Positions 7,785 through 25,127 of a stretch of 64,000 nt of DNA are shown piece after piece. Position 1 is the stretch's first letter. Every line of letters starts with the position of its first letter. The translations under genes and the position numbers were made by a program. The notes under the pieces were generated by a model, which did no database searches, was not told where the DNA came from, and saw nothing but the letters and a program-made list of their open reading frames with translations. This DNA comes from Janthinobacterium sp. GW456P (GTDB lineage Bacteria > Pseudomonadota > Gammaproteobacteria > Burkholderiales > Burkholderiaceae_D). The stretch spans positions 23,132-87,131 of the forward strand of contig NZ_NEHB01000021.1 in assembly GCF_002127655.1 (NCBI RefSeq). The letters are read 5' to 3'.

Positions 7785-7875
7785 GGAGAGGTGGATGAGT
7801 GGTTGAAGTCGCACGCCTGGAAAGCGTGTATAGGTTCATAGCCTATCGGGGGTTCGAATCCCCCTCTCTCCGCCA
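7785..7875 (+). tRNA. tRNA-Ser (GGA)
   Basis: A class II tRNA with long variable arm. The acceptor stem is GGAGAGG/CCTCTCC, the anticodon stem-loop CACGC-CTGGAAA-GCGTG has anticodon GGA, the T-arm contains GGTTCGAATCC, and CCA is encoded. Its last part is repeated at 18934-18949 and a P4-type integrase follows within 225 bases, so it is the likely attachment site of the island to the right. Confidence 0.97.
7853..7868 (+). repeat. attL-like core in the 3' end of tRNA-Ser
   Basis: TTCGAATCCCCCTCTC within the tRNA T-arm and acceptor is identical to 18934-18949. P4-type integrases commonly use such tRNA 3' ends. The two copies define an island of about 11.1 kb. Confidence 0.65.
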
Positions 7876-7956: not shown

Positions 7957-8096
7957 TATTCTGGCGTCCAGTACTGTCCAGCTGCAGCCAGTCCAAATCA
8001 GGGCTGGATTACAGATGAGCTTACCCCATGTCTCGAACCAAGCCCTGATTCGCTGGTCTAAAGTGATTTCTGACGCATATGCTGAGGAGACCAGCC

Positions 8097-9386
8097 ATGG
8101 CCAAGATTATCCCTCCCCTGACCGAACTCCAGGTCAAGAATGCCAAGCCCAGGCAAAAGTCATACAAGCTGTTCGATGGTGGTGGCCTGTACGTTGAAGT
8201 GATGCCCAGCGGCTCGCGGATCTGGCGTATGAAATTCCGTCAATCGAATGGCAAGGAAAATACGCTGACCTTCGGACCTTATCCGGAAATTTCGATCATG
8301 GTGGCGCGTGAAAAGCGCACGGAGGCGCGCCGCTTGCAGCTGCAGGGTATCGACCCTGGCAAGTACCGCGATGACGCCAGGCGGCTCGCCGCCGAAAAAG
8401 CATCCAATACCTTCGAGAAAATCGCCCGCGAGTGGTACGCAAACAAGGTGCCGACATGGAGCGAGCGCACTTCCAGGAACATGCTGCAGCGCCTGGAAGC
8501 CGATATTTTTCCAAGCATCGGCGACCGGCCGATCACGGAAATCCGGCACCGCGAACTGATTGCCACGCTGCGCAAGATCGAGGCGCGCGGTGCGACCGAG
8601 ATTGCGCATCGCCTGAAAGCCGTCTGCTCGCAGATATTCAGCTACGCCATCCAGTGCGGCCTGGCCGACCGCAACCTGGTGGTGGACATGAAGGACGTCT
8701 TGAAGACCAAGCGCGCCTCGCACTACGCCGCCATCGACGCCGATGAATTGCCCGCCTTCCTGGACGCGCTGGCGCGCAACGAGGCGCGCATGTTCGAGCC
8801 GACGCGCATCGCGCTGCGCCTGATGCTCCTGGTTTTCGTGCGCACCAGCGAACTGATAGAAACGCCATGGAGCGAAGTCGATCTGGAGAAGGGCGAGTGG
8901 ATCATTCCCTGGCAACGCATGAAGCGCGGCAAGCTGACCGTCAACCCCGACACGACCAATCACCACGTCTGCCTGTCGCGCCAGGCGCTGGCCTTGCTGC
9001 GCCAGCTGCACACCATCACGGGCCGCGGCACGTACCTGTTTCCAAACCAGCGCGACCACGATAAGCCGCTGAGCAACAACACGCTGCTGGTGGCGCTGGC
9101 CCGCATGGGCTACAAGGGCCGCATGACGGGCCACGGCTTCCGGGCGCTGGCAATGAGCACCATCAAGGAGCGCCTGGGCTACCGCCATGAAGTGGTGGAC
9201 CGCCAGCTGGCGCACGCGCCCAAGGACAAGGTGGCCAGCGCCTACGACCGCGCCCAGTTCCTGTCGGAGCGCCGCAAGATGATGCAGGAGTGGGCCGACT
9301 ACCTGGAGGCCGTGGAGCGCGGTGATACGCCGCAGCCAGGCCATCATGGATCGTTGGAACTGGTTTGGCCAGCGCCGCGTCGTTAA
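8097..9386 (+). CDS. int: P4-type site-specific tyrosine recombinase (integrase)
   Basis: Catalyses integration and excision of the island at tRNA-Ser. The 429-residue protein has the N-terminal arm-binding domain (DUF4102; KLFDGGGLYVEVMPSGSRIWRMKF, about residues 24-47), a SAM-like core-binding region, and the catalytic domain with R249 (VRTSELIE), H346 and R349 (GHGFRA), H373 (LAHAPKD) and the nucleophile Y383 (SAYDR). All catalytic residues are intact, so it may be active. The start at 8097 (MAKIIPP) follows GAGGAGACC; the upstream in-frame codon is less likely. Its TAA stop is part of the ribosome site of the next gene. High-GC codon use matches the host. Confidence 0.95.
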   Translation: MAKIIPPLTELQVKNAKPRQKSYKLFDGGGLYVEVMPSGSRIWRMKFRQSNGKENTLTFGPYPEISIMVAREKRTEARRLQLQGIDPGKYRDDARRLAAEKASNTFEKIAREWYANKVPTWSERTSRNMLQRLEADIFPSIGDRPITEIRHRELIATLRKIEARGATEIAHRLKAVCSQIFSYAIQCGLADRNLVVDMKDVLKTKRASHYAAIDADELPAFLDALARNEARMFEPTRIALRLMLLVFVRTSELIETPWSEVDLEKGEWIIPWQRMKRGKLTVNPDTTNHHVCLSRQALALLRQLHTITGRGTYLFPNQRDHDKPLSNNTLLVALARMGYKGRMTGHGFRALAMSTIKERLGYRHEVVDRQLAHAPKDKVASAYDRAQFLSERRKMMQEWADYLEAVERGDTPQPGHHGSLELVWPAPRR

Positions 9387-9396
9387 GGAGACAGCC

Positions 9397-10020
9397 ATGC
9401 CAAGACGAATTGAACCTCTGACAGAGCAACAGCTGATACATGCGGAGCCTGGGGACAAACCATTCAGGTTATTCGACGGCTACGGCCTGTATGTTGAAGT
9501 CATGCCGACTGGCTCGAAGATCTGGCGCATGAAATTTCGGCAAAAGGACGGTAAGGAAAATGCCCTGACATTCGGCCACTACCCGGAGGTATCGCCAACG
9601 CTTGCTCGATGCCGCCGTGCAGTCGCACGCCAGATGCTGCATGACGGGCTGGACCCGCGTACAGAGTTCGACGCGGCCCACATGCGTTCACCGAAGCCCG
9701 TCAGGCGGCATTGCCTGCTTCCCGTTGCCATGGACGATAGAAAGGTGGAGCGCTGCGTAAGCCAGGTTGGCAGGCAAGCGCTGGAGCGGTTGCACGGCCT
9801 TGTATTCCCTGCGCTGAGCCGCGTCGAGGCCGATGAATCCGTGCGAAGCGACATGCAGGCGATGCTGGAGAAAATCCAGAAGGAGCGTAGCGTAGAGGTG
9901 ATTGATTTGTTGTACGACTACTGTGCCGACATCGTCTTTGGCTGCCTTGGATCGGGCATCGATGAAGATGATTTGATCGAGGCCATGAGGGATGCCAGGG
10001 TGGCGCAGCGGCGGAAGTAG
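9397..10020 (+). CDS. stand-alone integrase arm-type DNA-binding domain (DUF4102) protein
   Basis: This 207-residue protein repeats the N-terminal arm-binding domain of the preceding integrase (LFDGYGLYVEVMPTGSKIWRMKFRQ, residues 25-50, then TFGHYPEVSPTLAR). It has no core-binding or catalytic domain. Residues 100-207 are unrelated to recombinases and contain Cys and acidic stretches (IDLLYDYCADIVFGCL, IDEDDLIEAMRDARVAQRR). AAGGAG overlaps the TAA stop of the integrase gene, so translation is probably coupled. It may compete for arm sites and act as a directionality factor or repressor of integration; this is inference. It could instead be a decayed, truncated integrase duplicate, although the reading frame is clean. 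Confidence 0.8.
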   Translation: MPRRIEPLTEQQLIHAEPGDKPFRLFDGYGLYVEVMPTGSKIWRMKFRQKDGKENALTFGHYPEVSPTLARCRRAVARQMLHDGLDPRTEFDAAHMRSPKPVRRHCLLPVAMDDRKVERCVSQVGRQALERLHGLVFPALSRVEADESVRSDMQAMLEKIQKERSVEVIDLLYDYCADIVFGCLGSGIDEDDLIEAMRDARVAQRRK

Positions 10021-12779: not shown

Positions 12780-12789
12780 CTGAAAGGTC

Positions 12790-12957
12790 GGGGTCAGATC
12801 CGCCATTTGGACACGGGCTGATGCATTGAACACTGCAGAAGCCAGGTCAGTTAGAACAACGCACGCAGGTCCTCAGCACGCAATGCTGACGACAAAGACC
12901 TAAAGGCATCAACTGTAACCACAGCACCAATCCGTGTCCAAATGGCGGACCTGACCC
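12790..12957. mobile_element. MITE-like element, copy A
   Basis: A 168-base non-coding element with 26-27-base terminal inverted repeats: it begins GGGGTCAGATCCGCCATTTG GACACGG (written in two parts) and ends with the near-exact complement. Copies B (15424-15590) and C (20533-20701) are roughly 80-90 percent identical by eye. There is no transposase inside. Confidence 0.85.
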
Positions 12958-13072: not shown

Positions 13073-14131
13073 TTATGCGATATTATTTTTTGGAAATTCT
13101 ATTGTGAAACTATTTTTTGCATACTTTCTTTCTTCAAAAATAATAGCTTTTGATGAAGGTTGTGGTGCCCCGGCCTTAATATATATTTTTGCATTGTTTA
13201 GTTCTAAAAGTTGTCGAATCAATCCCATTCCCAAGCCCGATCCAGCCCCGCCAAAGATTTTAGCCTGTACTCCAGAGTACCCTTCCTCGAATAGCAGATC
13301 CAATTCATCTGGTGAGATATGAAGACTTGTCATTTCGAAGGAAATTTTGTATTTATCAACTTCTGAGACGAAGCCGATCATAATATCGGTGTCTGGTTCC
13401 GCGTATTTCGCAGCGTTATCTAAAATGTGATAAATTGCTACTTGAAATGAATCGTAGTCAAAATTCAATTTTTGATTGCTTGCTGATATGTATACCTTTA
13501 CATTTCTGTCTGCTAAGTCTTGAAAAAATAAAGTTACTACATTTAGAATAACCTTGTGAATTTCATGTTTTGCGACTCGCAAAACAGGGTTCGGATCATA
13601 TAGTTTTCTGTAGACTGAGAATTCGCTTTTTGCAGACATTTCATTCTTAAGTAGTCTCAATATCGTCTCAGCCGCCGCCGATGGATCTATTTCAAGATAC
13701 TCTTTAACTACCTTCTTTTGATTTCGAAAATTTTCTAAAAGTTTTTCTTGGGGGATTAGTGCATAAATTTCCTGTATTGAATGTCCGTTTAGTGATGTTA
13801 AATTGTGAAATAAGCGATTTACGCGTTCTGCTTCTTTCTTTGCAATTGCAGTTTTTACTTCATGAAAATGTGAAATCATTGACCTATATAGGTGTAAGGT
13901 TTTTTTGAAAACTTTTCCACTTTCAAGTAGGTTTAATTCATTGCTACATATGAAAATGCTACCATTAGTCGAAAGACTTAAACCTCTTCGTCTTTTTCCT
14001 TTTTCGCCACAAGAATTTGTTATTTCATTTTCAGAATTGCACAACTGTACACATGCACCACATTGAGGCGGCAAATTGGAAAATATTGTGTTGTTTTGAA
14101 TATCTTTTAATAAAATATGTAAATTTTCCAC
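13073..14131 (-). CDS. cytoplasmic Cys-rich sensor histidine kinase
   Basis: A 352-residue protein without membrane segments. The N-terminus has a Cys cluster C24-x2-C27-x3-C31-x9-C41 (PPQCGACVQLC), suited to zinc or an iron-sulfur cluster. A helical region follows with H109-N-L (RLFHNLTSLNGHSIQ) as the likely phospho-accepting His. The C-terminal HATPase domain has the N box HILDNAAKYA (N249) and the G box GAGSGLGMGLIRQLLELN (about 304-321). It starts five bases after the stop of the membrane-anchored receiver gene, so the two form an operon. Base composition is far more AT-rich than the neighbours, a sign of transfer. The input could be redox or metal; the output is unknown. Confidence 0.8.
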   Translation of the reverse strand: MENLHILLKDIQNNTIFSNLPPQCGACVQLCNSENEITNSCGEKGKRRRGLSLSTNGSIFICSNELNLLESGKVFKKTLHLYRSMISHFHEVKTAIAKKEAERVNRLFHNLTSLNGHSIQEIYALIPQEKLLENFRNQKKVVKEYLEIDPSAAAETILRLLKNEMSAKSEFSVYRKLYDPNPVLRVAKHEIHKVILNVVTLFFQDLADRNVKVYISASNQKLNFDYDSFQVAIYHILDNAAKYAEPDTDIMIGFVSEVDKYKISFEMTSLHISPDELDLLFEEGYSGVQAKIFGGAGSGLGMGLIRQLLELNNAKIYIKAGAPQPSSKAIIFEERKYAKNSFTIEFPKNNIA

Positions 14132-14135
14132 TCCA

Positions 14136-14735
14136 TCATCCTATTTCACACGAATACTCTTCGATTAGCCGTATAAATTCATATGGTTCTGAATTTTTTG
14201 GAAGCGAATAATCAACAGTTCTGAGAGCTTGATGAAAGCGTTCACCCGTTGTTTGTGCTGAGTAAATTATGACTTTCTTCATTGGGTATTTTTTCTTTAT
14301 AGCTAGCGCTAAGCCAAGCCCTTCATCGGAAAATCCCAAGGCTTTTCCAACACCTTGGATGTCTATGAAAAGAATGTTCGAATCGTTTACATCAAAGCAA
14401 TCTAATGCAGGAATGTCTTTTAATATCTTTGTGTTTTTCCAGCCTGCGGTTTTTAGTATACTTACAACCTGAAATTTTATGTCGTCGTCTATAAATAATA
14501 TCCTAGTATTTTTTTTAAATGGATTTTCATTTTCCAAATTTTCTGGTTGGCCTATTTTTTTTTCATTGTTTTTTTCTGGGGTGACGTTGTTAGAGATCGT
14601 ATTATTTATTGTGATTGGCGATGGCTCTATTTTTTCTTGTCTGGGTTTTTTAACAAATCCCCAAAGCGTAATCGCGATTGCCACGCCAAAACCGCTAAAG
14701 ATCCACTCAACATTTGTTTGTAGCCATGTAAACAT
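14136..14735 (-). CDS. membrane-anchored receiver-domain protein
   Basis: A 199-residue protein. Residues 10-28 (EWIFSGFGVAIAITLWGFV) form one N-terminal membrane helix. A low-complexity Asn-rich linker follows (about 35-75), then a receiver domain. The acidic pocket D83-D85 (ILFIDDDIKF), the phospho-acceptor D125 (ILFIDIQGVG), the Ser in IIYSAQ and K180 in SLPKNSEP are all in place. There is no DNA-binding output domain. It is the first gene of a two-gene AT-rich operon with the Cys-rich kinase. A receiver tethered to the membrane, with the kinase in the cytoplasm, reverses the usual topology, so the output probably acts at the membrane. The start at 14735 is the first ATG and fits the membrane helix. 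Confidence 0.8.
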   Translation of the reverse strand: MFTWLQTNVEWIFSGFGVAIAITLWGFVKKPRQEKIEPSPITINNTISNNVTPEKNNEKKIGQPENLENENPFKKNTRILFIDDDIKFQVVSILKTAGWKNTKILKDIPALDCFDVNDSNILFIDIQGVGKALGFSDEGLGLALAIKKKYPMKKVIIYSAQTTGERFHQALRTVDYSLPKNSEPYEFIRLIEEYSCEIG

Positions 14736-15144: not shown

Positions 15145-15423
15145 ATGCCCTACACCTACGCCAAAGTCGCCGACCTGGAAAAAACCTCCATGGTTAGCAA
15201 TCATTAATGCGTTGCGCTGATCCGCCATTACGCGGGCGCCCCAGCCACATTTGCCTGGAAGCAGGGCGAGGCAGTGCTGGGTAACCGTTTGCTGCGCAAG
15301 GGCACGGCCATTGCCACGTTTATCAACGGGAAGTACGCGAATCATCAGCAAGGCAATCACGCGGCGTTGTATATGGGACAGACGCTGGACGGGATCATTG
15401 TCATGGATCATTGGTCGCAGGCC
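15145..15423 (+). pseudogene. BPSL0067-family amidase-like protein, broken
   Basis: The frame reads MPYTYAKVADLEKTSMVSNH, then TAA at 15205-15207, then continues in the same frame with CVALIRHYAGAP, AVLGNRLLRKGTAIATF and NHAALYMGQTLDGIIVMD. This is the N-terminal two thirds of the BPSL0067 family (NlpC/P60-like cysteine peptidase fold, with the Cys in CVAL and His in NHAAL), which includes T6SS-linked peptidoglycan hydrolases. The gene has an early stop and loses its C-terminus exactly where MITE copy B begins (15424). A good ribosome site is still present. It is therefore a double-hit pseudogene, probably once a secreted effector. Confidence 0.8.
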
Positions 15424-15590
15424 GGGGTCAGGTCCGCCATTTGGACAGGGGCTGATACATTGAGCACTGCAGAAGCCGGGTCAGTTAGAACAACGAACGC
15501 ACTTCCTCGGCACGCGATGCTGCCGACAAGGACCTAAGGGCTTTTACTGCAACCACAGCACCAATCCGTGTCCAAATGGCGGACTTGACC
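15424..15590. mobile_element. MITE-like element, copy B (inside the amidase pseudogene)
   Basis: Same element as copies A and C. The left end GGGGTCAGGTCCGCCATTTG directly abuts codon 93 of the amidase frame. The right end has lost the last bases of the terminal repeat (GGACTTGACC). The missing C-terminal part of the amidase gene is not found on the other side, so insertion was accompanied or followed by deletion. Confidence 0.85.
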
Positions 15591-15629
15591 TCACGCGCGT
15601 TGCGTGAAAGATGCTCCTTGGGTACCCCA

Positions 15630-15664
15630 GGGCGGAATCGAACCACCGACACAAGGATTTTCAA
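15630..15664 (-). repeat. tRNA-Phe-derived direct repeat, left copy
   Basis: A 35-base stretch (containing GGTGGTTCGATTCCGCC in minus-strand reading) is identical to 18761-18795. It corresponds to the tRNA-Phe T-arm up to the anticodon loop (TTGAAAA). In this copy the 5' side of the anticodon stem and the acceptor differ, so only the core is shared. The two copies flank a two-gene cassette. Confidence 0.8.
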
Positions 15665-15717
15665 GCCGGGACTTGTTGTTGCACCAAAATCATTCATCCC
15701 GCTGCGCCAAGACGCCG

Positions 15718-16767
15718 CTAGCGCAGAAAATAGATTGCGACAGGAGTTGCCATCACCCATATAGCCAGTAGAGCGGTGCGCATATTGAGGCGTGAGCGCA
15801 GGCTGGCGATTGATTGCTCAGCCTGCGAACCAGCTTGATTAGATGCGGTTCTAAGGTGTTCCAGCTCCTCTTGCTGTGCCGCGATGTGCTGCTGAAGGGC
15901 CTTGATTTCTTGCTGCCGCGATTGCGAAGACTGTTCCAAGTATTCCAGCAAGTTGGCAAAGGTGGTTTGTTGGGCATGCTGATCCTGGAGCCGTAGCTTC
16001 AATTCCTGGGTTTCTGCTAGAGTCCGAGAGTCCGCATGAACCAGCCCTTTGCCGAGCGCTTCGAGTTCGAGCTGCTGTGCAAGGGACTGTTTCTGAAGGC
16101 TCGACAGGTCTGCTTGCTGCCGCTCGGATTCTTGCTGTAATGTGCCGACCGTTTCGGCAAGAGTATGGTAAAGGTCTACCTGCTCTTTGACAGCCTGCCC
16201 TAGATCATCGGTCTGATCCAGCAAGAGGCTGATTTTGGTATCGTGCCCGCCGAGCGTTCTCCCCATCTGATCTTGCTTTCGGAGCAAATCCTCCTGCTCC
16301 TTCAATTGCTTGATGACGGATAGTACTTCAGTGCGTGCCAGCTCGGACAACTCCTCCTCAGAAGCGCTGCGCAGGCGCATTTCCAGTTCCCGCACCACGG
16401 TGCGGTTGGCGGCGATGTTGCTTACCCCCAAGGTAAAGAGATATTTGGTGACATCGGCAAGCCGTTTTTGCATTTCAAAAGACAGCTTCTGAGCCTTAGT
16501 GCCCGATGTGACTGCGTCAGCCAGTGCAATACCCGCCTGCTGAAGCCCCTCAATGGCGGCTTTTTTCTTGTCGGTAAAAAAACCTCGGTCTGCTGATTGC
16601 TCGCGTGCTTTTTTCGCACTGGTCTCGGCGAGTTCCGCATCGGCGAGCGCTTTTTTCACTCCCTCATCCAGTTCATTGAGTTTCCCGATCTGGGCCTGAA
16701 TGAGTTCAGGCAGCCTGTTGTCGTCGCGCTGTATTTCCGGATAAGCAGTCATATTAATTAGCCCCAT
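15718..16767 (-). CDS. coiled-coil protein with C-terminal membrane anchor
   Basis: A 349-residue protein of no family I can name. Residues 15-75 and about 130-320 are rich in Glu, Gln, Leu, Lys and Ala with heptad spacing (EEELSELARTEVLSVIKQLK; EQSSQSRQQEIKALQQHIAA), as in long coiled coils. The last 20 residues (RTALLAIWVMATPVAIYFLR) form one membrane helix, so this is a tail-anchored rod facing the cytoplasm. Its first ATG overlaps the stop of the upstream gene by 10 bases (ATGGGGCTAA); a second Met five codons on (16752) is an alternative start. It ends 54 bases before the left tRNA-Phe repeat. It probably forms a complex with the 500-residue protein. Confidence 0.8.
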   Translation of the reverse strand: MGLINMTAYPEIQRDDNRLPELIQAQIGKLNELDEGVKKALADAELAETSAKKAREQSADRGFFTDKKKAAIEGLQQAGIALADAVTSGTKAQKLSFEMQKRLADVTKYLFTLGVSNIAANRTVVRELEMRLRSASEEELSELARTEVLSVIKQLKEQEDLLRKQDQMGRTLGGHDTKISLLLDQTDDLGQAVKEQVDLYHTLAETVGTLQQESERQQADLSSLQKQSLAQQLELEALGKGLVHADSRTLAETQELKLRLQDQHAQQTTFANLLEYLEQSSQSRQQEIKALQQHIAAQQEELEHLRTASNQAGSQAEQSIASLRSRLNMRTALLAIWVMATPVAIYFLR

Positions 16768-18260
16768 TTAAGGAGCTGGTGAATGTCGTCAATAAGTCCA
16801 GGGTTGTTGGCTTCAATGCCGGTTCGCATCGTCCCGATCCGCTGCAGGGACGAGCGATTCTCTTTCCATGCACGTGCAAAGATGTCCATGGACTGGGACA
16901 TGATTTGTTCGGCCTCCCGTAGGCAGGTTTCGGTGTGCGTAGCGGTTTGCCACATGTCGGCCTGCAGATAGGCGACCTTGGCATTGGCCCAGTGCAGTTG
17001 CTGGCTCAGCACCGCGATGCGCTCATCACGTGCCCGGCTCCTTTGTGCGCCCATCGATACGTCGGAGTACACCGCGACCGTAAAGCGGCCAATCCCCACG
17101 AAGTTCACGCGCAGTAGCAGCTGTGCGCCAAATTGTCCCCAGTTGCCGCCAGATTTCAGTGCGGCGCGAATGGCCGCATCAGCAAGGTCCACGGCCGTAA
17201 AGGTACCGGTGGCGATAGTGAGCATCCGTGCGATGGTGCGATTTTTCCAAGGCAGCGTCTTTTTCCATTCGATGTCCTGGAACGATTTTTTGGCTTTTAC
17301 CTCCGTCACCAGGCGGCTAATGAAATAAAAGGCACGTACCAGCACTTCGTTGATCAACACAGGCACTGCCTGGCGTTTTACTTCGTGCAAGACGGCCAAT
17401 TCAGCGCGCAGATCGAATCGCTCGTTTACAAAAATCTCCTTAAGTTTTTTTGGCAGGCCCGTCTTGTCCAAGCTTGGAATGGTTGAGAGCTCCTTGAGCA
17501 AAGACACCATAGGTCCGGGGATGCCCATGCCTGCGCCGGCCGTCTTGTTGCTGCCAGACATATCGCTGACAAGGTGAAAAAACCAGTTGACTGTGCCGCA
17601 AAAGATCTTCGAGGGAATGTCAGAGCCGATCAGTTTCAACCCATTTTCATCAATGTCGATGGGCAGGAAGGTGCCCTCACTATTTTGGAAATATCCTGTC
17701 TTGGTAAACTGTGTCAGGATAGAAAAGAACAGGCCGATTGGCGTCGGATGGTGAGCCAAGTCATCAAGGTGATGACTTCTGGCCGAGATTTTTGCGTTTT
17801 GGTTTTTCCAGATGTTGTCGGTTGGGAGCGGAAACTTCTTTTCCAAGAATTCGATGGCGCCATCCAGGCGTTCGCCTTTGTAGCCTTGCGCCTTGGCACT
17901 CTTCATGACGAAGTCGTTAACCGCATGATTACTCCAGGCTTTGCCACGCTCGAAGCTGAATTCGCCTACCCAAAACACATCTATCAGTCCCGCCAGCAAG
18001 CCGCTTCCAACGGCCACCCTGTTATCAATGTGGTCTGCATGGTTGGTCAGGCGGTCAATCTGCTGGTCCAGCTCATCGATCCGATCTTGTGTGGACTGCA
18101 TCTCACGTTGAACGTGGTTCAAGCCAGCGAGAATGTCGTCGGATGCTGATCGCCCAGAAGACGGCGCGGTCGCGCAGAAATCGAATACGACCTCAATGCT
18201 GTCATCAACGACCTTGAAGGCGGGAAGATCCAGTCGGAGTTCGTTCGATTCGTGAAGCAT
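16758..18260 (-). CDS. large uncharacterised protein of a two-gene cassette
   Basis: A 500-residue protein. A coiled-coil stretch (about 45-80: VQREMQSTQDRIDELDQQID) precedes a Gly-rich hydrophobic segment (about 82-100: VAVGSGLLAGLIDVFWVGEF). Then come ERGKAWSNHAVNDF, KAQGYKGERLDGAIEFLEKKF, and a striking motif HHLDDLAHHPTPIGLFFSIL (about 168-188). Another possible membrane-associated segment is FCGTVNWFFHLVSDMSG, followed by the Gly/Pro loop AGAGMGIPGP. From memory, proteins with this HHPTPxGL layout occur in many gut and soil bacteria as hypotheticals; I know no tested function. It is the first gene of a two-gene operon overlapping the tail-anchored coiled-coil gene, inside a cassette flanked by tRNA-Phe repeats. 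Confidence 0.8.
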   Translation of the reverse strand: MLHESNELRLDLPAFKVVDDSIEVVFDFCATAPSSGRSASDDILAGLNHVQREMQSTQDRIDELDQQIDRLTNHADHIDNRVAVGSGLLAGLIDVFWVGEFSFERGKAWSNHAVNDFVMKSAKAQGYKGERLDGAIEFLEKKFPLPTDNIWKNQNAKISARSHHLDDLAHHPTPIGLFFSILTQFTKTGYFQNSEGTFLPIDIDENGLKLIGSDIPSKIFCGTVNWFFHLVSDMSGSNKTAGAGMGIPGPMVSLLKELSTIPSLDKTGLPKKLKEIFVNERFDLRAELAVLHEVKRQAVPVLINEVLVRAFYFISRLVTEVKAKKSFQDIEWKKTLPWKNRTIARMLTIATGTFTAVDLADAAIRAALKSGGNWGQFGAQLLLRVNFVGIGRFTVAVYSDVSMGAQRSRARDERIAVLSQQLHWANAKVAYLQADMWQTATHTETCLREAEQIMSQSMDIFARAWKENRSSLQRIGTMRTGIEANNPGLIDDIHQLLKWG

Positions 18261-18708
18261 GCGGCACCTGTGTTGTTGAGCGTAGGCTTTTCGTTTGCGC
18301 TACCGCCCGCGATGCCGTTCTACCTGGAAATACAATTGTATTGCATCAACATCCGGAGCAGAGAATATACTTTTGCAGCCACAAAACTTTTGCAGCCACC
18401 AAACGTTCCGATGGCCTGCGTCTGCGTGCGTATTCCGCTGAAACTGGACAGCTGTTAAAGGCCAAGCTGGACACTTGGGACGTGGCGGCGCGGGGGAATG
18501 GTGTGGTCTTACACCTGAGGGGATTGTCAAACTGGTCAACGCAGAACAAATGGATGCATGGGCATCTCGGTCATTTGTGGGCAGCACGATGACGAGGCGC
18601 TGGACACTCCGGACGATTGGATGATTCTGGCGGTTTCGCGGAGGGGAGTGTGGTGGGACGCTGGTCGGAAATAGACCGGACGCAAGGACTTTCTACTCTA
18701 CAAACAAA
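18261..18708. other. intergenic region upstream of the two-gene cassette operon
   Basis: No gene is supported. The region should hold the promoter of the minus-strand operon. Short frames here overlap on both strands and none reads like a protein. Confidence 0.4.
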
Positions 18709-18734
18709 AACGCCAACCGGTGATGGTTGGCGTT
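18709..18734 (-). terminator. hairpin terminator beyond the tRNA-Phe fragment
   Basis: A perfect ten-base stem AACGCCAACC / GGTTGGCGTT with a six-base loop and, in minus-strand reading, a following TTTTG. It sits 17 bases past the CCA of the tRNA-Phe fragment, as a terminator of a tRNA gene would. Confidence 0.7.
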
Positions 18735-18750
18735 TCGTGAGGCATATTCT

Positions 18751-18805
18751 TGGTGGTCCGGGGCGGAATCGAACCACCGACACAAGGATTTTCAATCCTT
18801 AGCTC
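18751..18805 (-). pseudogene. 3' fragment of tRNA-Phe (GAA)
   Basis: In minus-strand reading GAGCT-AAGGATTGAAAATCCTT gives a complete anticodon stem-loop with anticodon GAA. A variable loop, the T-arm GGTGG-TTCGATT-CCGCC, the acceptor strand CCGGACC and ACCA follow. The D-arm and 5' acceptor strand are missing, so it is not a functional tRNA. Positions 18761-18795 are the right copy of the 35-base direct repeat (left copy 15630-15664). It fits an attachment site created by integration at the anticodon-loop/T-arm region. Confidence 0.8.
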
Positions 18806-18933: not shown

Positions 18934-18949
18934 TTCGAATCCCCCTCTC
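18934..18949 (+). repeat. attR-like copy of the tRNA-Ser 3' end
   Basis: TTCGAATCCCCCTCTC is identical to 7853-7868. It is followed by CCACC-TTCG-GGTGG and T-rich sequence (18957-18985), a hairpin terminator in the same direction, as expected for the original downstream context of tRNA-Ser. This marks the likely right end of the island. Confidence 0.65.
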
Positions 18950-19112
18950 GCAAAAAACCACCTTCGGGTGGCCTTTTGCTTTTGTGCGTGGCGAAGAGAA
19001 GCAGGGCGCCTGCGTGCCCTGCGCGGGGATTTGAAGGGCCGGGCCTACCGGGTCCGGCCGTTTCCGAAACCAACTGCGCGGCAGCTTCGCGCGCCTGCGG
19101 CGCGCGTTCGTG

Positions 19113-19190
19113 GTTCTAATCAGGTTTCGACTGAGTAAGCTTCTACAGCGCCCGATGCATCAGTCCATGTCCAAATGGCTGAGCTGACTC
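19113..19190. repeat. degenerate repeat related to 12510-12588
   Basis: GTTCTAATCAGGTTTCGACT...GCTTCTACAGCGC... aligns with the copy at 12510 and ends in TGTCCAAATGGCTGAGCTGA, a decayed form of the MITE-like right terminus. The rest of 18950-19287 holds no supported gene. Confidence 0.5.
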
Positions 19191-19287
19191 TGGCGCCCCT
19201 GTTAAAACTCCTGAAGCACCAGTGCGTGCCGACCCTGACCCCAGCGCCCAGCCGACCCCAGCGCCTCTGGGGAGTATGTGTATGCGC

Positions 19288-19848
19288 TCAATCAGTCAGC
19301 AGGCTTTTTCGGAGGCGCTTCAATGTCTCCGTAAAGACATCCGTTCGGTCAAAAGCACGGGCCAAAACCAAGGCACCCTGGATACTGCCAACCACTTCTT
19401 CGGCGAGAGCTTGGGCTTCTTGTGGCTTGCGTCCAGTCCGTTCCAGCGCAGCTGCAAGCGCGTCGATCCAGGCAGCGAAGTAATCGCGGATTCTGTCGGC
19501 AAAGCGATCGCGCTCATTTCCAAGTGCGAATACGCCAACGAGACAGACACGGCGGCCAGAGAGGAAGTAACGACCCACATCGTCGAACATGGCCGTGATG
19601 CCTTCTACGGCATCTGAACGTTCATTCAGCGATTCGAAGACATTCCGCTTGAACCAGTCATCAACATGAGCAAGCACGGCCTCAGCCATTTCCTCTTTGC
19701 CGCCCGGGAAAAAGTGATAGATGCTACTCTTCCCTAGTTTCGTACCTTCGGTAATACGAGCCAGGCTCGCTCCTTCGAAACCATAGGTGCGGAACACTTC
19801 CGCCAGCATCGGGATGACATCTTCCCGCTCCGCAATTACTCTAGCCAT
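19288..19848 (-). CDS. TetR/AcrR-family regulator
   Basis: A 186-residue regulator. The N-terminal helix-turn-helix is visible in MLAEVFRTYGFEGASLARIT and KLGKSSIYHFFPGGKEEM (residues 14-52), with the typical GKSSIYHFF recognition helix. The C-terminal ligand domain (GRRVCLVGVFALGNERDRF) is of the TetR_C type seen in regulators of the LmrA/YxaF group. It follows the DUF1348 gene by nine bases on the same strand. A palindrome upstream of that gene is the likely autoregulatory operator. Start at 19848. Confidence 0.88.
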   Translation of the reverse strand: MARVIAEREDVIPMLAEVFRTYGFEGASLARITEGTKLGKSSIYHFFPGGKEEMAEAVLAHVDDWFKRNVFESLNERSDAVEGITAMFDDVGRYFLSGRRVCLVGVFALGNERDRFADRIRDYFAAWIDALAAALERTGRKPQEAQALAEEVVGSIQGALVLARAFDRTDVFTETLKRLRKSLLTD

Positions 19849-19857
19849 TAATCTTCC

Positions 19858-20328
19858 TTAGAACCCGAAATCGCTCAGGCTTGCATAGTCAGCCGGGCGT
19901 GGGCCACTATTGTCCCACAGGAACTTGCGCTCCTCAGGCTTGATCGGATGTTCATTGATGCAAGCATGACGGTGATGCATCAGACCATGTTCATCGAACT
20001 CCCAGTTTTCGTTGCCATAGGCACGATACCACTGACCAGAATCATCATGGTATTCATAGGCGAAACGTACGCCGATACGTGCACCATCGAAGGCCCACAA
20101 CTCTTTGATCAGACGGTAGTCCAACTCGCGCGTCCACTTGCGCTTCAGCAGCGCGATGATGGCTTCGCGGCCTTGAACGAACTCGGCGCGATTGCGCCAC
20201 CAGCTATCTTCGGTGTAGGCGAGGGCGACTTTCTCTGCATCGCGAGTATTCCAGCCATTTTCGGCAAGGCGGACTTTCTCAATTGCTGTTTCGCGGGTGA
20301 AAGGTGGCAGTGGTGGACGGATAGACAT
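19858..20328 (-). CDS. DUF1348 (NTF2/SnoaL-like fold) protein
   Basis: A 156-residue protein. [40 protein letters not shown] and [20 protein letters not shown] are hallmarks of the DUF1348 nuclear-transport-factor-2-like family. Its catalytic role is unknown; such proteins are often induced with TetR partners and may act on small reactive molecules. The start at 20328 follows AAAGGA; a longer frame upstream would run through the operator and is rejected. First gene of a two-gene operon with tetR. Confidence 0.88.
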
Positions 20329-20346
20329 GGTAATTTTTCCTTTAGT

Positions 20347-20380
20347 GTACTGATCGGAACACAATGTACCGATCAGTACA
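20347..20380. promoter_or_regulatory. palindromic operator of the DUF1348-tetR operon
   Basis: GTACTGATCGG and its exact complement CCGATCAGTAC are 11 bases apart; the right arm also forms TGTACCGATCAGTACA. The spacing and position, 19 bases before the DUF1348 start, are typical of TetR-family operators. Confidence 0.75.
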
Positions 20381-20532
20381 GAGACTTTAGTCCAGTCCCC
20401 CGCACATTGCAAGCGATTTTTTAGGGAAAAGTGGGGCTTACACCGGCCACTACAGGCGATCGTGTTTTTGGCCATGTTGGCAAGAGAAACCTTGCATGTT
20501 CCTCTGCGGTGGTGTGTTTGCTTGCGAGGGCG

Positions 20533-20701
20533 GGGGTCAGGTCCGCCATTTGGACACGGGCTGATACATTGAACACTGCAGAGGCCGGCTCAGTTAGAGC
20601 TACGAACGCACGTCCTCGGCGCGCGATGCCGGCGACAGAAACCTAAAGGCTTTTACGGCACCCCAAGCACCAATCCGTGTCCAAATGACGGATCTGACCC
20701 C
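20533..20701. mobile_element. MITE-like element, copy C
   Basis: Third copy, 169 bases, with both terminal inverted repeats present (27 bases, two mismatches between left and right ends). It lies outside the tRNA-Ser island, between the TetR operon and the DHA2 exporter gene, so the element is not confined to the island. The rest of 20381-20769 holds no supported gene. Confidence 0.85.
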
Positions 20702-20769
20702 GCGTCTGGTATCTGACCCCGGCCCCGATTCCGACCTCCAAGTTCAGGCTGCCGCCAAGGAATTCCTCG

Positions 20770-22209
20770 CTACTCTGGTGTTGCGGGCGCCTGCTTCAGC
20801 ATTAACGATGCAACTGCCGAGACAACGCTGACGATGCCTGCTATCAAGAATGCGAACCGGTAACCTGCAAGTTCGGCCGCCTGGGGGAGTTGCCCGGTGG
20901 CCAGTTGCGTTGCCATTACCGAATGGGCGACTGCACCTAGCACTGCTATGCCCACCGCGCCGCCTAACTGGCGTGCAGTGTTCTGTAGTCCTGCTGCGAG
21001 TCCCGAGTCTTTCCGTGGAACGCCTGCAAGAACTGCTTGCGTGGCACTCATCATCACCAAGCCGTTGCCAGCGCCGACCAGCAATGTAGGCAGCAGAAAT
21101 TCGCTGACCTGCAATGGATGAACAGGTAGCCAATTGAGCCAGATCAGGCCTGCTGCCGACACGAGGCTGCCAATAAAGGGCAACTGTTTAAAGCCAGCGT
21201 CCCGCAAATGGCGTGATGCGATCGATGCGATAGCCAGCGCCGAAGCCATTGGTAGTAAAGCCAGTCCGGTGTCGAGCGGACTGCGCCCGTCAATCCGCTG
21301 CAGCGCCTGCGACAGAAAGAACATAGATACCGTGAGCACCGCGCCGAGGCTCAACACCATAGCCATTCCGACCGTTACGTTTCGCAGGCGAAATATTTCG
21401 AAATTGATCAGGGGCTGAGCCGAACGGCGTTCAGCCGCGATGAAGGCGACGAACATGATCAGCGCGGTAGCCAGGGCACTGAGCACGGTACTGGATATCC
21501 AACCGGCATGTGCCGATTCTGAGATCGCATAGAGAAACGAGGCCAACGCCAGCGTGACAGTGGACGCTCCCAGAACATCCAGCTTCGCCCGGGCGTCGCC
21601 TGTGAGCTGTGGGCGCAGACAGCCGGCAACAACCGCGGCCAAGACGATACCGACAGGTATGTTGACGAACATCACCCAGCGCCAGCTGGCTAGGCTCGTC
21701 AGCAAGCCGCCAATGACCACGCCAAAGGCGGAGCCCATCGCGGCGCAGGCCGCCCACAGGCCGATCGCTCGTTCCTGACTCGCCCCCTTGGGGTGGGCGG
21801 CGACGATGACTGCCAGCGGTGAGGTCGCCAGTATCGACGCGCCCAAACCCTGCACTGCGCGCGATGCCAGCAGCATGCTCCCGGAAGTCGCAAAGCCACC
21901 TGCCAGGCTGGCTCCAGTGAACAGCGTCAGACCCCACAGCAGAAGGCGCCGGCGCCCATAGATGTCGCTGGCGCGTGCAGCGAGCAACATGAAGCCACCC
22001 AGCAACAGCAGGTAGATGTCGACTACCCACTGCAATTGGACAGGTGACAGACCCAGGTCATCGCGCATCGCCGGTAGCGCGACGTTCACGATGGCACCGT
22101 CCACCACGACCATGAAGGCACACACGCAGGCGACGAAGGTAGCGATCCAGGTCGATACGCCACTGCGCAGCAGCGGTGGCGGCATCGCCGGTACGGAAGA
22201 TATAGACAT
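20770..22209 (-). CDS. DHA2-family (EmrB/QacA-type) MFS drug exporter
   Basis: A 479-residue inner-membrane proton antiporter with about 14 hydrophobic segments. The DHA2 hallmarks are FMVVVDGAIVNVALPAM (TM1), the loop ARASDIYGRRRLLLWG between TM2 and TM3, and the antiporter motif C region GSAFGVVIGGLLTSLASWRW in TM5. The start at 22209 (MSISSVP) is chosen because GAGAGGT lies seven bases upstream, whereas the longer frame begins with GTG. The gene is divergent from an AraC regulator 118 bases away, which probably controls it. Substrate cannot be told; toxic organic compounds are likely. Confidence 0.92.
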   Translation of the reverse strand: MSISSVPAMPPPLLRSGVSTWIATFVACVCAFMVVVDGAIVNVALPAMRDDLGLSPVQLQWVVDIYLLLLGGFMLLAARASDIYGRRRLLLWGLTLFTGASLAGGFATSGSMLLASRAVQGLGASILATSPLAVIVAAHPKGASQERAIGLWAACAAMGSAFGVVIGGLLTSLASWRWVMFVNIPVGIVLAAVVAGCLRPQLTGDARAKLDVLGASTVTLALASFLYAISESAHAGWISSTVLSALATALIMFVAFIAAERRSAQPLINFEIFRLRNVTVGMAMVLSLGAVLTVSMFFLSQALQRIDGRSPLDTGLALLPMASALAIASIASRHLRDAGFKQLPFIGSLVSAAGLIWLNWLPVHPLQVSEFLLPTLLVGAGNGLVMMSATQAVLAGVPRKDSGLAAGLQNTARQLGGAVGIAVLGAVAHSVMATQLATGQLPQAAELAGYRFAFLIAGIVSVVSAVASLMLKQAPATPE

Positions 22210-22327
22210 TTGTTGACCTCTCAGCACGATGGCGGCGGCGACTGCCGCCTAAAAGTTTGGTAGGAGCCAAGTATGCTGAACAGTATGAAAAGTCATATAA
22301 CGGTAAATGGACTTAAAATGGTGATAA

Positions 22328-23158
22328 ATGGCCAAACTGAATCCTGAGCATGAGCAACCGGAAGACGACTTCAGCGAGTGGTCGGATGGCCCTCGTCTGA
22401 TCGCGTTGTTGGGGAATGACGATCAGGCCAGCGAGTACCGCCTCGGAACACGCGAGTACGGTTTGCATCATCATCATCGAGGGCAGGTGTTCTGCGTAGA
22501 CGCCGGGCTCATCCATGTGCGGACAGCTCAAGGATCGTGGTTGCTGCCGCCGAACCGCGCCGGCTGGATGCCGCCAGGGGTACCGCATCAAGTACGTGTC
22601 AGCGGTGCTCTTGCCGGCTGGAGCGTGTTCATCACCCCGAAATCTAGTGCGTGCTTGCCGAACCAGCCTTGCGTGATCGGCATCACGGAGGTGTTGCGCG
22701 CATTGGTGCGCCGGGCAGCCGAATGGGACAAGTCCGCTCAGCTGGCACCAGACCAAGAGCACGTCGTTACCGTAATCCTTGACGAAATCCGTCGTGCGCC
22801 GCATGAGTCGCTGCACTTGCCGATGCCGACAAATGCTCGGCTGGAGCGCATCGCTCGGGCGATCCTGGACGATCCAGGTTCGATGCGAACGTTGGAAGCT
22901 TGGGCAGATTGGGGCGCGATGTCGGCTCGAACGCTGCGCCGTCAGATGCAGGCTGAAACAGGCCTGAGCTTTGCTCAATGGCGCCAGCAGGCACAACTCA
23001 CGCACGCCCTGGAAATGCTTGCGCGAGGAGAGTCGGTCACGCATGTTGCCGACACGCTGGGCTATGCCTCACCGAGCAACTTCATCGCCATGTTTCGCCG
23101 TTCCTTCGGCGACTCCCCGGCACGATACTTTGCGGCGCGTTCTGTTGGCGGCAGTTGA
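22328..23158 (+). CDS. AraC-family regulator with cupin sensor
   Basis: A 276-residue activator. The N-terminal cupin part has HHHHRGQVFCVDAGLIHVR and LLPPNRAGWMPPGVPHQV (residues 47-93), and the C-terminal two-helix AraC domain has SARTLRRQMQAETGLSFAQW and VTHVADTLGYASPSNFIAMF, then FRRSFGDSPARYF. This arrangement is shared with NimR-type regulators of drug exporters. It is divergent from the DHA2 gene and probably regulates it. Start at 22328 (ATGGCCAAACTG); no strong ribosome site. Confidence 0.9.
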   Translation: MAKLNPEHEQPEDDFSEWSDGPRLIALLGNDDQASEYRLGTREYGLHHHHRGQVFCVDAGLIHVRTAQGSWLLPPNRAGWMPPGVPHQVRVSGALAGWSVFITPKSSACLPNQPCVIGITEVLRALVRRAAEWDKSAQLAPDQEHVVTVILDEIRRAPHESLHLPMPTNARLERIARAILDDPGSMRTLEAWADWGAMSARTLRRQMQAETGLSFAQWRQQAQLTHALEMLARGESVTHVADTLGYASPSNFIAMFRRSFGDSPARYFAARSVGGS

Positions 23159-23494
23159 AGCATTGGCATCAATCGGCTGCCTCCCATCATTGAGATCGGG
23201 CAGGCACGCGCTTGGACGATGCGTACACGCTGGCAGCATCTTTAAAAACGACAACGGGGATATACATGGCCGCTCCCTGTGATTGAATTGAGTGTGTATT
23301 TCAGCATAATCGCTGCGATACCAGGGTTCAAAATGCAGAAAAAGCTCGAGTTCAAAATGCAGAAAAAGCTCGAGGAAGCGGGCTGTTTGCACGCAACAAG
23401 CAATCCAGCAATCAGGGGCTTGCGCCTGCGCATGTCGGCTTACGCGTTCCGCTAAGCCGACCTACGAAATTGCCGCTTGTCCGCAGCGCAGACG
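23159..23494. other. intergenic region between araC-type gene and aceA
   Basis: No gene is supported. It contains a 24-base tandem duplication at 23327-23374. Confidence 0.5.
23327..23374. repeat. 24-bp perfect tandem duplication
   Basis: TTCAAAATGCAGAAAAAGCT plus CGAG occurs twice in immediate succession in non-coding sequence. It is probably a recent slippage or duplication product. Confidence 0.9.
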
Positions 23495-23525
23495 CAAAAA
23501 AAACCCGCCGAAGCGGGTTTTTTTA
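23495..23525. terminator. bidirectional hairpin terminator after aceA
   Basis: AAACCCGC-CGAA-GCGGGTTT with A and T tracts on both sides, 22 bases beyond the aceA stop codon. It can serve both strands. Confidence 0.85.
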
Positions 23526-23546
23526 TTCCATGAGCAAGCCAAACGC

Positions 23547-25127
23547 TCAGAACTGGTTCATGGTGTTGTCTTTGCCAGCCGCTTTCAGCGCCGCTTCGCC
23601 GCTAAAGTAATCCTTGTGGTCGTCGCCGATGTCCGAGCCGGACATGTTTTGATGTTTCACGCAGGCGATGCCCTGGCGGATTTCCTTGCGCTGGACGCCG
23701 GCCACGTAGCCCAGCATGCCCTGGTCGCCGAAGTATTCCTTGGCCAGGTTGTCGGTCGACAAGGCTGCCGTATGGTAGGTCGGCAGCGTGATCAGGTGAT
23801 GGAAGATGCCGGCTTCGCGGGCCGCGTCGGCCTGGAAGGTGCGGATCTTTTCGTCGGCCGCGATCGCCAGTTCCGTCTGGTCGTATTCCACGCTCATCAG
23901 CTGGCTGCGCTCGTAGGCGGACACGTCCTTGCCATCGGCCTTCATCGCGTCATACACCTGCTGGCGGAAGTTCAGGGTCCAGTTGAACGATGGGCTGTTG
24001 TTGTACACCAGCTTGGCGTTCGGGATGACCTTGCGGATTTCGCTGACCATGCCGCCGATTTGCGCGATATGCGGTTTTTCCGTTTCGATCCACAGCAGGT
24101 CGGCGCCGTTTTGCAGCGAGGTGATGCAGTCGAGCACACAGCGCTCTTCGCCCGTGCCGGCACGGAACTGGAACAGGTTGCTTGGCAGGCGTTTTGGACG
24201 CAGCAGCTTGCCTTCGCGCTTGATGATGACGTCGCCATTGCCCAGCGCGTCGGCCGACACTTCTTCGCAGTCGAGGAAGGCGTTGTACTGGTCGCCCAGG
24301 TCGCCTGGTTCATTCGTCACGGCGATCTGCTTGGTCAGGCCGGCGCCCAGCGAATCGGTGCGGGCGACGATGATGCCGTCGTCCACGCCCAGTTCCAGGA
24401 AGGCGTAGCGGATGGCGCGGATCTTGGCCAGGAAGTCTTCGTGCGGCACCGTGACTTTACCGTCCTGATGGCCGCATTGTTTCTCGTCGGACACCTGGTT
24501 TTCGATCTGGATGCAGCAGGCGCCCGCTTCGATGAACTGTTTTGCCAGCAGATAGGTCGCTTCGGCATTGCCGAAACCGGCGTCGATGTCAGCGATGATG
24601 GGCACGACGTGGGTGACGTGGCCGTCGATCTTGGCCTGGATCGCTTGCTTTTCAGCACCTTGGGCCGCGTCCAGCTGGCGGAAGAGGCCGCCCAGTTCGC
24701 GGGCATCGGCCTGGCGCAGGAAGGTGTAGAGTTCCTTGATCAGTGCCGAGACGGCGGTTTTTTCATGCATGGACTGGTCTGGCAGCGGGCCGAACTCGGA
24801 GCGCAGGGCAGCGACCATCCAGCCGGACAGGTAGAGGTAGCGGCGGTCGGTGCTGTTGAAGTGCTTTTTGATCGAGATCATCTTCTGTTGACCGATGAAA
24901 CCGTGCCAGCAACCGAGCGACTGGGTGTACTTGGATGGGTCCGCATCGTAGGCGGCCATGTCGTTGCGCATGATCTTGGCCGTGTACTTGGCGATGTCCA
25001 GGCCGGTCTTGAATTTGTTCTGGGCGCGCATGCGGGCGGCGGACTCGGGATTGATGGCGTTCCATGCGCTGCCTTGTTGGTCTTTCAAACCGGCAACAGC
25101 CTTGATGTCGTCTTGATATTGGGACAT
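23547..25127 (-). CDS. aceA: isocitrate lyase
   Basis: Cleaves isocitrate into glyoxylate and succinate, the first step of the glyoxylate bypass. The 526-residue protein has HVVPIIADIDAGFGNAEATY (metal and substrate loop) and the catalytic-loop Cys in EKQCGHQDGK (C218). It carries WIETEKPHIAQI, YNNSPSFNWTLNF and a long C-terminal part with FHLITLPTYHTAAL-like sequence (HHLITLPTYHTAA). The KQCGHQ loop and the length mark the longer ICL subfamily found in Pseudomonas-type bacteria rather than the 434-residue E. coli form. The start follows TTAGGAGATTCAC. A perfect palindrome lies about 125 bases upstream. Malate synthase is not in the window. Confidence 0.95.
   Translation of the reverse strand: MSQYQDDIKAVAGLKDQQGSAWNAINPESAARMRAQNKFKTGLDIAKYTAKIMRNDMAAYDADPSKYTQSLGCWHGFIGQQKMISIKKHFNSTDRRYLYLSGWMVAALRSEFGPLPDQSMHEKTAVSALIKELYTFLRQADARELGGLFRQLDAAQGAEKQAIQAKIDGHVTHVVPIIADIDAGFGNAEATYLLAKQFIEAGACCIQIENQVSDEKQCGHQDGKVTVPHEDFLAKIRAIRYAFLELGVDDGIIVARTDSLGAGLTKQIAVTNEPGDLGDQYNAFLDCEEVSADALGNGDVIIKREGKLLRPKRLPSNLFQFRAGTGEERCVLDCITSLQNGADLLWIETEKPHIAQIGGMVSEIRKVIPNAKLVYNNSPSFNWTLNFRQQVYDAMKADGKDVSAYERSQLMSVEYDQTELAIAADEKIRTFQADAAREAGIFHHLITLPTYHTAALSTDNLAKEYFGDQGMLGYVAGVQRKEIRQGIACVKHQNMSGSDIGDDHKDYFSGEAALKAAGKDNTMNQF

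Follow-up and report, generated by a model that had tools for sequence, protein, structure and literature searches.

A 64,000-nt stretch of the genome of Janthinobacterium sp. GW456P (assembly GCF_002127655.1, contig NZ_NEHB01000021.1, positions 23,132-87,131 of the forward strand), referred to here as the window, contains a short cassette bounded by two direct repeats that derive from tRNA-Phe. Coordinates are positions in the window and those of the features are collected in Table 1. According to the list of open reading frames (ORFs), the repeats enclose only two substantial genes, both on the minus strand and overlapping by 10 nt, which encode a protein of 500 residues, B, and a partner of 349 residues, P. 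The cassette occupies the right end of a tRNA-Ser island of about 11 kb. In comparison with their Paraburkholderia homologues (77% and 55% amino acid identity), B and P show ratios of non-synonymous to synonymous substitution rates (dN/dS) of 0.11 and 0.14, respectively, with synonymous sites near saturation; both evolve as coding genes.

A first-pass annotation of this DNA, made from the letters alone, had described 35-bp identical repeats at 15630 and 18761 that read as part of tRNA-Phe, with the two overlapping genes as the sole genes between them, and both observations are confirmed. The 35-nt core is identical in the two copies and is bounded by one mismatch at either end; in 64 kb, about 3e-12 exact repeats of this length are expected by chance. 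Read on the minus strand, both copies cover tRNA-Phe from its anticodon loop through to the acceptor end. The left copy is 95% identical over 42 nt to both intact tRNA-Phe genes of this genome, which lie at two places on contig C36, and additional 3' fragments are found on contigs C34 and C1. The annotation had also stated that no integrase lies inside the cassette, which holds for the DNA between the repeats, but an integrase gene is present 6.2 kb away in the enclosing island.

Table 1 Features of the cassette and of the enclosing island (positions in the window).
Feature	Position	Strand	Remarks
tRNA-Ser (GGA), attachment gene of the island	7785-7875	+	ARAGORN, Rfam
Tyrosine integrase (Arm-DNA-bind_3 + Phage_int_M + Phage_integrase)	8079-9386	+	Pfam; PF00589 match; directly downstream of tRNA-Ser; the copy at this tRNA in G402 is 97.5% identical
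PDC-M43B candidate, HATPase protein	13073-14131	-	PADLOC E 1.7e-113; HATPase_c
PDC-M43A candidate, partner protein	14136-14735	-	PADLOC E 2.4e-75
Left tRNA-Phe 3'-half repeat, left cassette border	15627-15667	-	39/41 nt match with right copy; identical core 15630-15664; G402 homology stops here
P, 349-residue partner	15718-16767	-	Helical N-terminal part (about 165 residues) conserved, coiled coil variable, membrane-type helix at the C-terminus; matches no family at E ≤ 0.001
B, 500-residue BnzB-family protein	16758-18260	-	PADLOC BnzB E 1.3e-62; alignment; structure model
Right tRNA-Phe 3'-half repeat	18758-18798	-	Identical core 18761-18795; belongs to the right-end block of seven genus genomes (own genome included)
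tRNA-Ser 3' part, exact 16-nt copy, right island boundary	18934-18949	+	Lies in the right-end block

B matches the PADLOC profile of BnzB (E 1.3e-62, 210.6 bits) with residues 61-413, corresponding to model positions 144-487 of 504. This is its sole PADLOC match at E ≤ 1 (M09B-type was not matched), and no match was found in Pfam, NCBIfam or PHROGs at E ≤ 0.001 or, with a profile of B, among solved structures at E ≤ 1. Bunzi, the system formed by BnzA and BnzB, was reportedly first described by Millman et al. in 2022. In the available portions of the following papers, Bunzi is listed as an anti-phage system for which a TerB domain is given (PMC10952713), its mechanism is given as unknown (PMC12926258), BnzA and BnzB are named as its components (PMC11206119), it is often plasmid-borne in Salmonella (PMC11305592), and TerB is named in connection with Shango (PMC10250203). 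Neither TerB nor any other Pfam domain was detected at E ≤ 0.01 in the two BnzA and two BnzB proteins scanned. Alignments of 45 and 40 proteins revealed invariant residues in B (numbered from Met1), namely D79, H163, H170, H229, S232, D233, D283, R285 and R309, together with a GxGxP run. The AlphaFold2 model of B is good and mostly helical, with a predicted local distance difference test (pLDDT) of 85.4 and a predicted template modelling score (pTM) of 0.66. The hydrophobic segment that had been ascribed to the 500-residue protein is there but weak: its best 19-residue mean is 1.52, below the Kyte-Doolittle mean of at least 1.6 by which membrane-type segments were defined. Viral contigs scanned with the single B or P sequence yielded no relatives, and two were found with the alignment.

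P has no match at E ≤ 0.001 in Pfam, NCBIfam, PHROGs or PADLOC. When it is aligned with five relatives of 352-477 residues, the N-terminal region of about 165 residues is kept and the length of the coiled coil varies, while the C-terminal hydrophobic helix is above the threshold in all six proteins, which bears out the membrane helix of the first-pass annotation. In PADLOC, P matched neither BnzA nor PDC-M09A at E ≤ 1, and hhalign gave probabilities of 0.2% with the BnzA alignment (6 rows) and 0.1% with the M09A-like alignment (25 rows), so that P as a diverged M09A or BnzA was rejected. The test has low power: M09A against BnzA reaches just 9.2%, though PADLOC links the two weakly (E 0.0014), and a very distant kinship of P to either is therefore still conceivable. 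A three-way alignment showed 21-24% identity, with a pairwise match that fell short of significance (E 0.066). Against solved structures, the P profile gave three weak matches (E 0.019-0.095).

The distribution of partners was surveyed in one genome per species (84,980 species) with two short peptide patterns, and the survey is thus incomplete. Relatives of B were found at 178 loci, of which the best 80 were kept for partner counts. An M09A-like gene lies downstream in 65 of these 80 (with unusual spacing in three, L031, L035 and L071), P lies downstream in six, the locus is one long ORF in four, BnzA lies upstream in three, and no partner was found in two, one at a contig end (L061) and one a fragment (L080). 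The annotation had proposed tabulating how often the two genes are adjacent; they adjoin in six species outside the genus, from Paraburkholderia, Aquabacterium, Novosphingobium, Bacillus, Lederbergia and a Prevotellaceae bin, with B-P gaps of -9 to 93 nt, and some of the neighbours (Paraburkholderia, Aquabacterium) are of defence type. These hosts span the Pseudomonadota, the Bacillota and a Bacteroidota bin. In the Novosphingobium locus B is split into two ORFs and P is truncated at the contig end, and the Prevotellaceae locus is on a small contig that may be misassigned. P is present in six of the seven loci closest to the B studied here, L080 being the exception.

In a tree built from 45 of the 88 collected B proteins (the copy from G402, a congener that also carries the cassette, is not among the 88), the partner labels require four changes, which is the minimum. 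The P type forms one clade (6 rows, 100/99), which is adjoined by the long-ORF group (5 rows including L031, 100/99), and the M09A type forms one group (76/98). BnzA-type proteins do not form a single group, as the two long-branch rows (L019 and L020) cluster with each other. The long ORFs (L029, L030, L041 and L042) encode BnzB-type proteins of about 790-840 residues. Three of them (L029, L030 and L042) are matched by the M09A-like query, and in PADLOC L029 has matches to BnzB as well as to PDC-M09A; such ORFs are natural fusions of core and partner. A membrane-type segment is found in 6/6 partners of the P type, 24/25 of the M09A-like type and 6/6 BnzA proteins; the hydrophobic region is central and Gly-rich in the M09A-like partners and is a tail helix in P. 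Based on these sequence comparisons, P is a third partner type of Bunzi-like systems, and B is a shared core found alongside three or more kinds of partner, and every kind has a membrane-type segment. The genome record of phage NatCom_3357 (L018, 3294-5847) also carries a pair of BnzB-like and M09A-like genes.

The pair is present only in the genome studied here and in G402 among 40 genomes of the genus, and only in the former among 399 genomes of the order. Between the repeats the two are identical at 3058 of 3090 positions (99.0%), without gaps. Identity falls to 118/135 (87.4%) to the right of the right repeat and to 11/24 to the left of the left repeat, where there is no blastn match; for reference, the integrase gene region of the island is identical at 848/886 positions and isocitrate lyase (24001-25127) at 1074/1127. 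Non-coding DNA inside the cassette (488/496 identical) is closer than that just outside it (Fisher p 4e-7). Since identity drops exactly at the repeats, the pair travelled recently with its borders there. The cassette thus seems to have been transferred in one piece, and recently, between two related species, on historical evidence from one genome pair, and the annotation's proposal of a mobile cassette is supported by the confinement of the 99.0% identity to the segment between the repeats. A cassette fixed to tRNA-Phe in all hosts was considered and rejected: no copy of the repeat and no tRNA gene was found at the six loci outside the genus (L023-L028), two of which are contigs of 4.2-4.3 kb.

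The membrane-type segment in every partner type, next to a single shared core, points to B as the component that senses and to P as the one that acts at the membrane, which is the assignment we favour. Defence is a likely function of the pair, judging by the homology of B to BnzB, a candidate PDC-M43 pair in the same island, and the GmrSD-, HNH- and WYL-type genes that adjoin the pair in Paraburkholderia; the first-pass suggestion of a defence-type module is strengthened by the same points. In Aquabacterium, a WYL regulator lies directly upstream and a phage-type integrase nearby. From the Bacillota flanks one protein was scanned (L026), with a weak match to PDC-S03 (E 0.0066). Our interpretation, which we hold with somewhat more confidence than doubt, is that the segment at 15.63-18.80 kb is a non-autonomous cassette carrying a two-gene anti-phage module at a tRNA-Phe-derived, attachment-like site in an integrase-bearing tRNA-Ser island, in which B would be the shared sensor or regulator and the membrane-type partner would be exchangeable and, upon infection, harm the inner membrane. 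B, probably a sensor or regulator, would sense infection or be modified by it and would then release or cluster the tail-anchored coiled-coil P. P would damage or depolarise the inner membrane, and the infected cell would be halted before phage release, an abortive outcome. Excision of the cassette would be carried out by an integrase acting in trans, in line with the movement in trans that the first-pass annotation had proposed.

Several points weigh against this interpretation. The tail helix of P in the genome studied here has a value of 1.63 and is barely over the 1.6 line, and the model of P, although helical, is of low confidence (pLDDT 69.6, pTM 0.35). A Foldseek search with the model of B gave no PDB or viral-model relative at E ≤ 0.001, which makes the sensor role of B a guess. 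The Paenibacillus locus L080, a fragment that is 77% identical to this B over a short stretch, was found without P. No phage experiment on the B-P pair, or on a BnzB system without BnzA, was found in the literature searched, in which few subscription journals are covered. Lastly, recombination between the 41-nt repeats could give the same pattern as integrase action at tRNA-Phe.

The roles within a defence system might also be reversed, with B as an effector enzyme that uses a His/Asp site and P as a membrane anchor and sensor near sites of phage entry. The polar, site-like residues that are invariant (H163 to R309 in the list above) sit in B, and the kept N-terminal helical domain of P with a coiled coil of variable length is as expected for a tether. 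This arrangement seems unlikely, given that searches of family libraries, solved structures and viral models assigned B to no enzyme family or fold and that the Gly-rich hydrophobic stretches in partners of the other subtypes are closer to membrane effectors than to tethers. More improbable still is a role outside defence, in stress or in a toxin-antitoxin-like maintenance of plasmids or islands. Relatives of BnzB, many of which are distant (24% identity), were found on 483 plasmid records, of which 432 are predicted to be conjugative, and addiction functions also occur on plasmids (a plasmid search with P gave no match). On the other side, BnzB is part of an anti-phage system listed by PADLOC and in reviews, and the islands contain other defence-type genes.

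The enclosing island, defined by a tRNA gene, an adjacent integrase and a repeat of the tRNA 3' end on the far side, contains a second candidate defence pair. This PDC-M43 pair accounts for the two PADLOC matches among seven further window proteins scanned; the module (13073-14735) has a low GC content of about 34% and no tblastn match in the G402 island. At the same tRNA-Ser in ten other genomes, the same or a related integrase (78-98% identical) is present in nine and none in G410, and six of the ten (G402, G408, G406, G410, G414 and G424) have an isocitrate lyase gene past the cargo. In G405 (L122, 695-5902), an extra 5.2 kb separates the tRNA-Ser from the integrase and is accompanied by a repeat of the tRNA 3' part, a tandem insertion at the same tRNA. 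The ORF at 9322-10020, just after the integrase and also present in congeners, has Arm-DNA-bind_3 as its sole Pfam domain and looks like a duplicated integrase N-terminus. Between the right end of the island and isocitrate lyase are TetR, DUF1348 and MFS genes (18950-23546); the same gap is less than 0.3 kb in G414 and G424, and this segment is probably a further insertion in the genome studied here. A dispersed repeat of 172 nt has three near-full copies in this region alone (12785-12956, 15419-15590 and 20528-20699, 87-100% identical to the 15419 copy), one of which ends 36 nt to the left of the left tRNA-Phe repeat, and partial copies on contigs C4 and C25.

The tRNA-Phe half recurs across the genus. 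The 40 genomes hold 28 copies in excess of two per genome, spread over 21 genomes, compared with 10 copies of the tRNA-His control in excess of one per genome, spread over nine genomes (p 0.01); the counts assume that each genome has two intact Phe genes and a single His gene, and some of the extra copies may be intact genes. The idea that tRNA-Phe is unique in having scattered fragments was dropped in view of the extra copies of the control. The right end of the island forms a block, in which the tRNA-Phe half is followed about 135 nt on by the tRNA-Ser 3' part, in seven genomes including the one studied here, and partial blocks are present in G403 and G437. The tRNA-Ser and an integrase are in the same stretch as the block in six of the seven; in G415 they were not found within the 17 kb examined. 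The cargo next to the block includes a type I M protein in G414 and TIR proteins in G415, one of which matches a solved protein named Tir (3.8e-80) and, weakly, ThsB. To the left of the fragments, nine flanks were compared in 36 pairs: 35 pairs were without a match at E ≤ 0.001, and the remaining one had a single short match.

Several of these sites carry short segments with genes of defence type. In G402 three tRNA-Phe fragments stand in line (L119, 4279-10601 for the first cargoes): two genes matching PDC-M62A/B (an ATPase and HNH pair) lie left of fragment 1, an unmatched 394-residue protein and an OLD-type ATPase between fragments 1 and 2, and the B-P pair between fragments 2 and 3. Three of the six proteins scanned there match PADLOC, and two of the three unmatched ones lie right of fragment 3. 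A 4.5-kb segment at a functional tRNA-Phe in G412 encodes Shedu SduA (E 8.7e-221), a type IV restriction enzyme and HEC-07; a 7.1-kb element in G417, which runs from a functional tRNA-Phe to a 3' fragment, encodes a methyltransferase, an LmuB-like ATPase and PDC-S21. In G421 (L147, 12740-15785), 3.0 kb between two tRNA-Phe 3' fragments hold a McrB-like AAA protein and an unmatched 441-residue protein, with no other ORF of at least 100 residues kept, and this is a second cassette of the same build. Seven of the ten proteins scanned from these three genomes match PADLOC, some of them generic families only. No integrase was seen in the three segments, by reading of the ORFs and by the lack of a match to the integrase of the island studied here; no profile scan was made. 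Five elements in all run from a functional tRNA-Phe to a 3' fragment. Of these, the two scanned with PADLOC (G412 and G417) both have defence-type genes; those of G419, G399 and G403 have small ORFs that by eye resemble SnoaL-, ParA- and Sel1-type proteins and speak against interpreting the fragments in terms of defence alone. More fragments are found in G409, G410, G404, G424, G434, G437 and G426, and a close pair in G427.

These observations bear on the means by which the cassette was exchanged. Ordinary homologous recombination between tRNA-Phe-like repeats, which would then be relics, could have swapped it with no site-specific integration, and the length of the repeats (41 nt), the scatter of such tRNA-like sequence through the genome and the absence of an integrase between the repeats fit such an exchange. 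We regard it as rather unlikely: the left homology to G402 stops within about one nt of the repeat, the left flanks are unmatched in 35 of the 36 pairs while the right-end block is retained, and elements in which no integrase was seen adjoin functional tRNA-Phe genes and show a duplicate of the same 3' half, as is typical of integration at tRNA genes. Returning to integration at an attachment-like site, we tentatively propose, with a little more doubt than confidence, that the truncated tRNA-Phe half in the right ends of tRNA-Ser islands may be a docking site where integrase-free defence cassettes, the B-P pair being one, insert, stack and are exchanged as whole units among species, an integron-like defence stockpile with tRNA fragments as its recombination sites. 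The finding suggests that small defence cassettes are swapped at tRNA-Phe 3' halves, which, if true, would help to explain the spread of short defence modules without integrases. The cassette is a two-gene module of defence type with a recent unit-sized transfer and exact borders. The BnzB family, as a common core with at least three partner types whose mutual sequence relation is weak or undetectable, makes the role of BnzB testable by comparison of the partners.

In layout, the cassette resembles the cis-mobilizable elements (CIMEs), integrase-free segments of 1.2-13 kb with att-like repeats on their flanks that are stacked with other elements, as given in the available part of PMC7563491, and accretion at the 3' ends of genes. 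Direct repeats of a tRNA 3' end lie on both sides, neither of the two inner genes matches integrase or transfer families, and the cassette is stacked. Unlike in CIMEs, stacking is at a truncated tRNA-Phe that lies within the right end of a tRNA-Ser island, and several of the cargoes are of defence type; the likeness described here is one of layout. The island itself has the tRNA, integrase, variable cargo and far-end tRNA 3' copy of known tRNA-Ser islands with a tyrosine integrase, from which it differs in its right end, where a tRNA-Phe 3' half and the tRNA-Ser 3' part lie about 135 nt apart (seven genomes). No paper on the combination of B and P, on PDC-M09 or on integrase-free, tRNA-bounded defence cassettes was found in the literature searched (most subscription journals lie outside its coverage), and PDC is not mentioned in the available part of PMC9252829. 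The statement in the first-pass annotation that no described system has this pair is thus true of P and of the combination, but not of the 500-residue protein, which matches the BnzB family.

Among the systems with a BnzB-family gene, the pairs of BnzB-like and PDC-M09A-like genes (mostly in Bacillota, on plasmids and in phage NatCom_3357) share with the B-P pair the order of the genes, with the BnzB-family gene first and a helical partner directly downstream, and differ in the partners, between which no sequence relation is detectable (hhalign 0.1%). With Bunzi, the pair shares a BnzB-family protein, a two-gene operon, a membrane-type segment in the partner and defence-type contexts. By contrast, BnzA is absent here, P lies downstream whereas BnzA lies upstream, the two partners compare at an hhalign probability of 0.2%, and B scores 210.6 bits against the BnzB profile compared with 504 and 591 for two canonical BnzB proteins. 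As judged from these homologies, the B-P pair is Bunzi-like in design, yet it is neither Bunzi, since it is without BnzA, nor PDC-M09, since it is without M09A.

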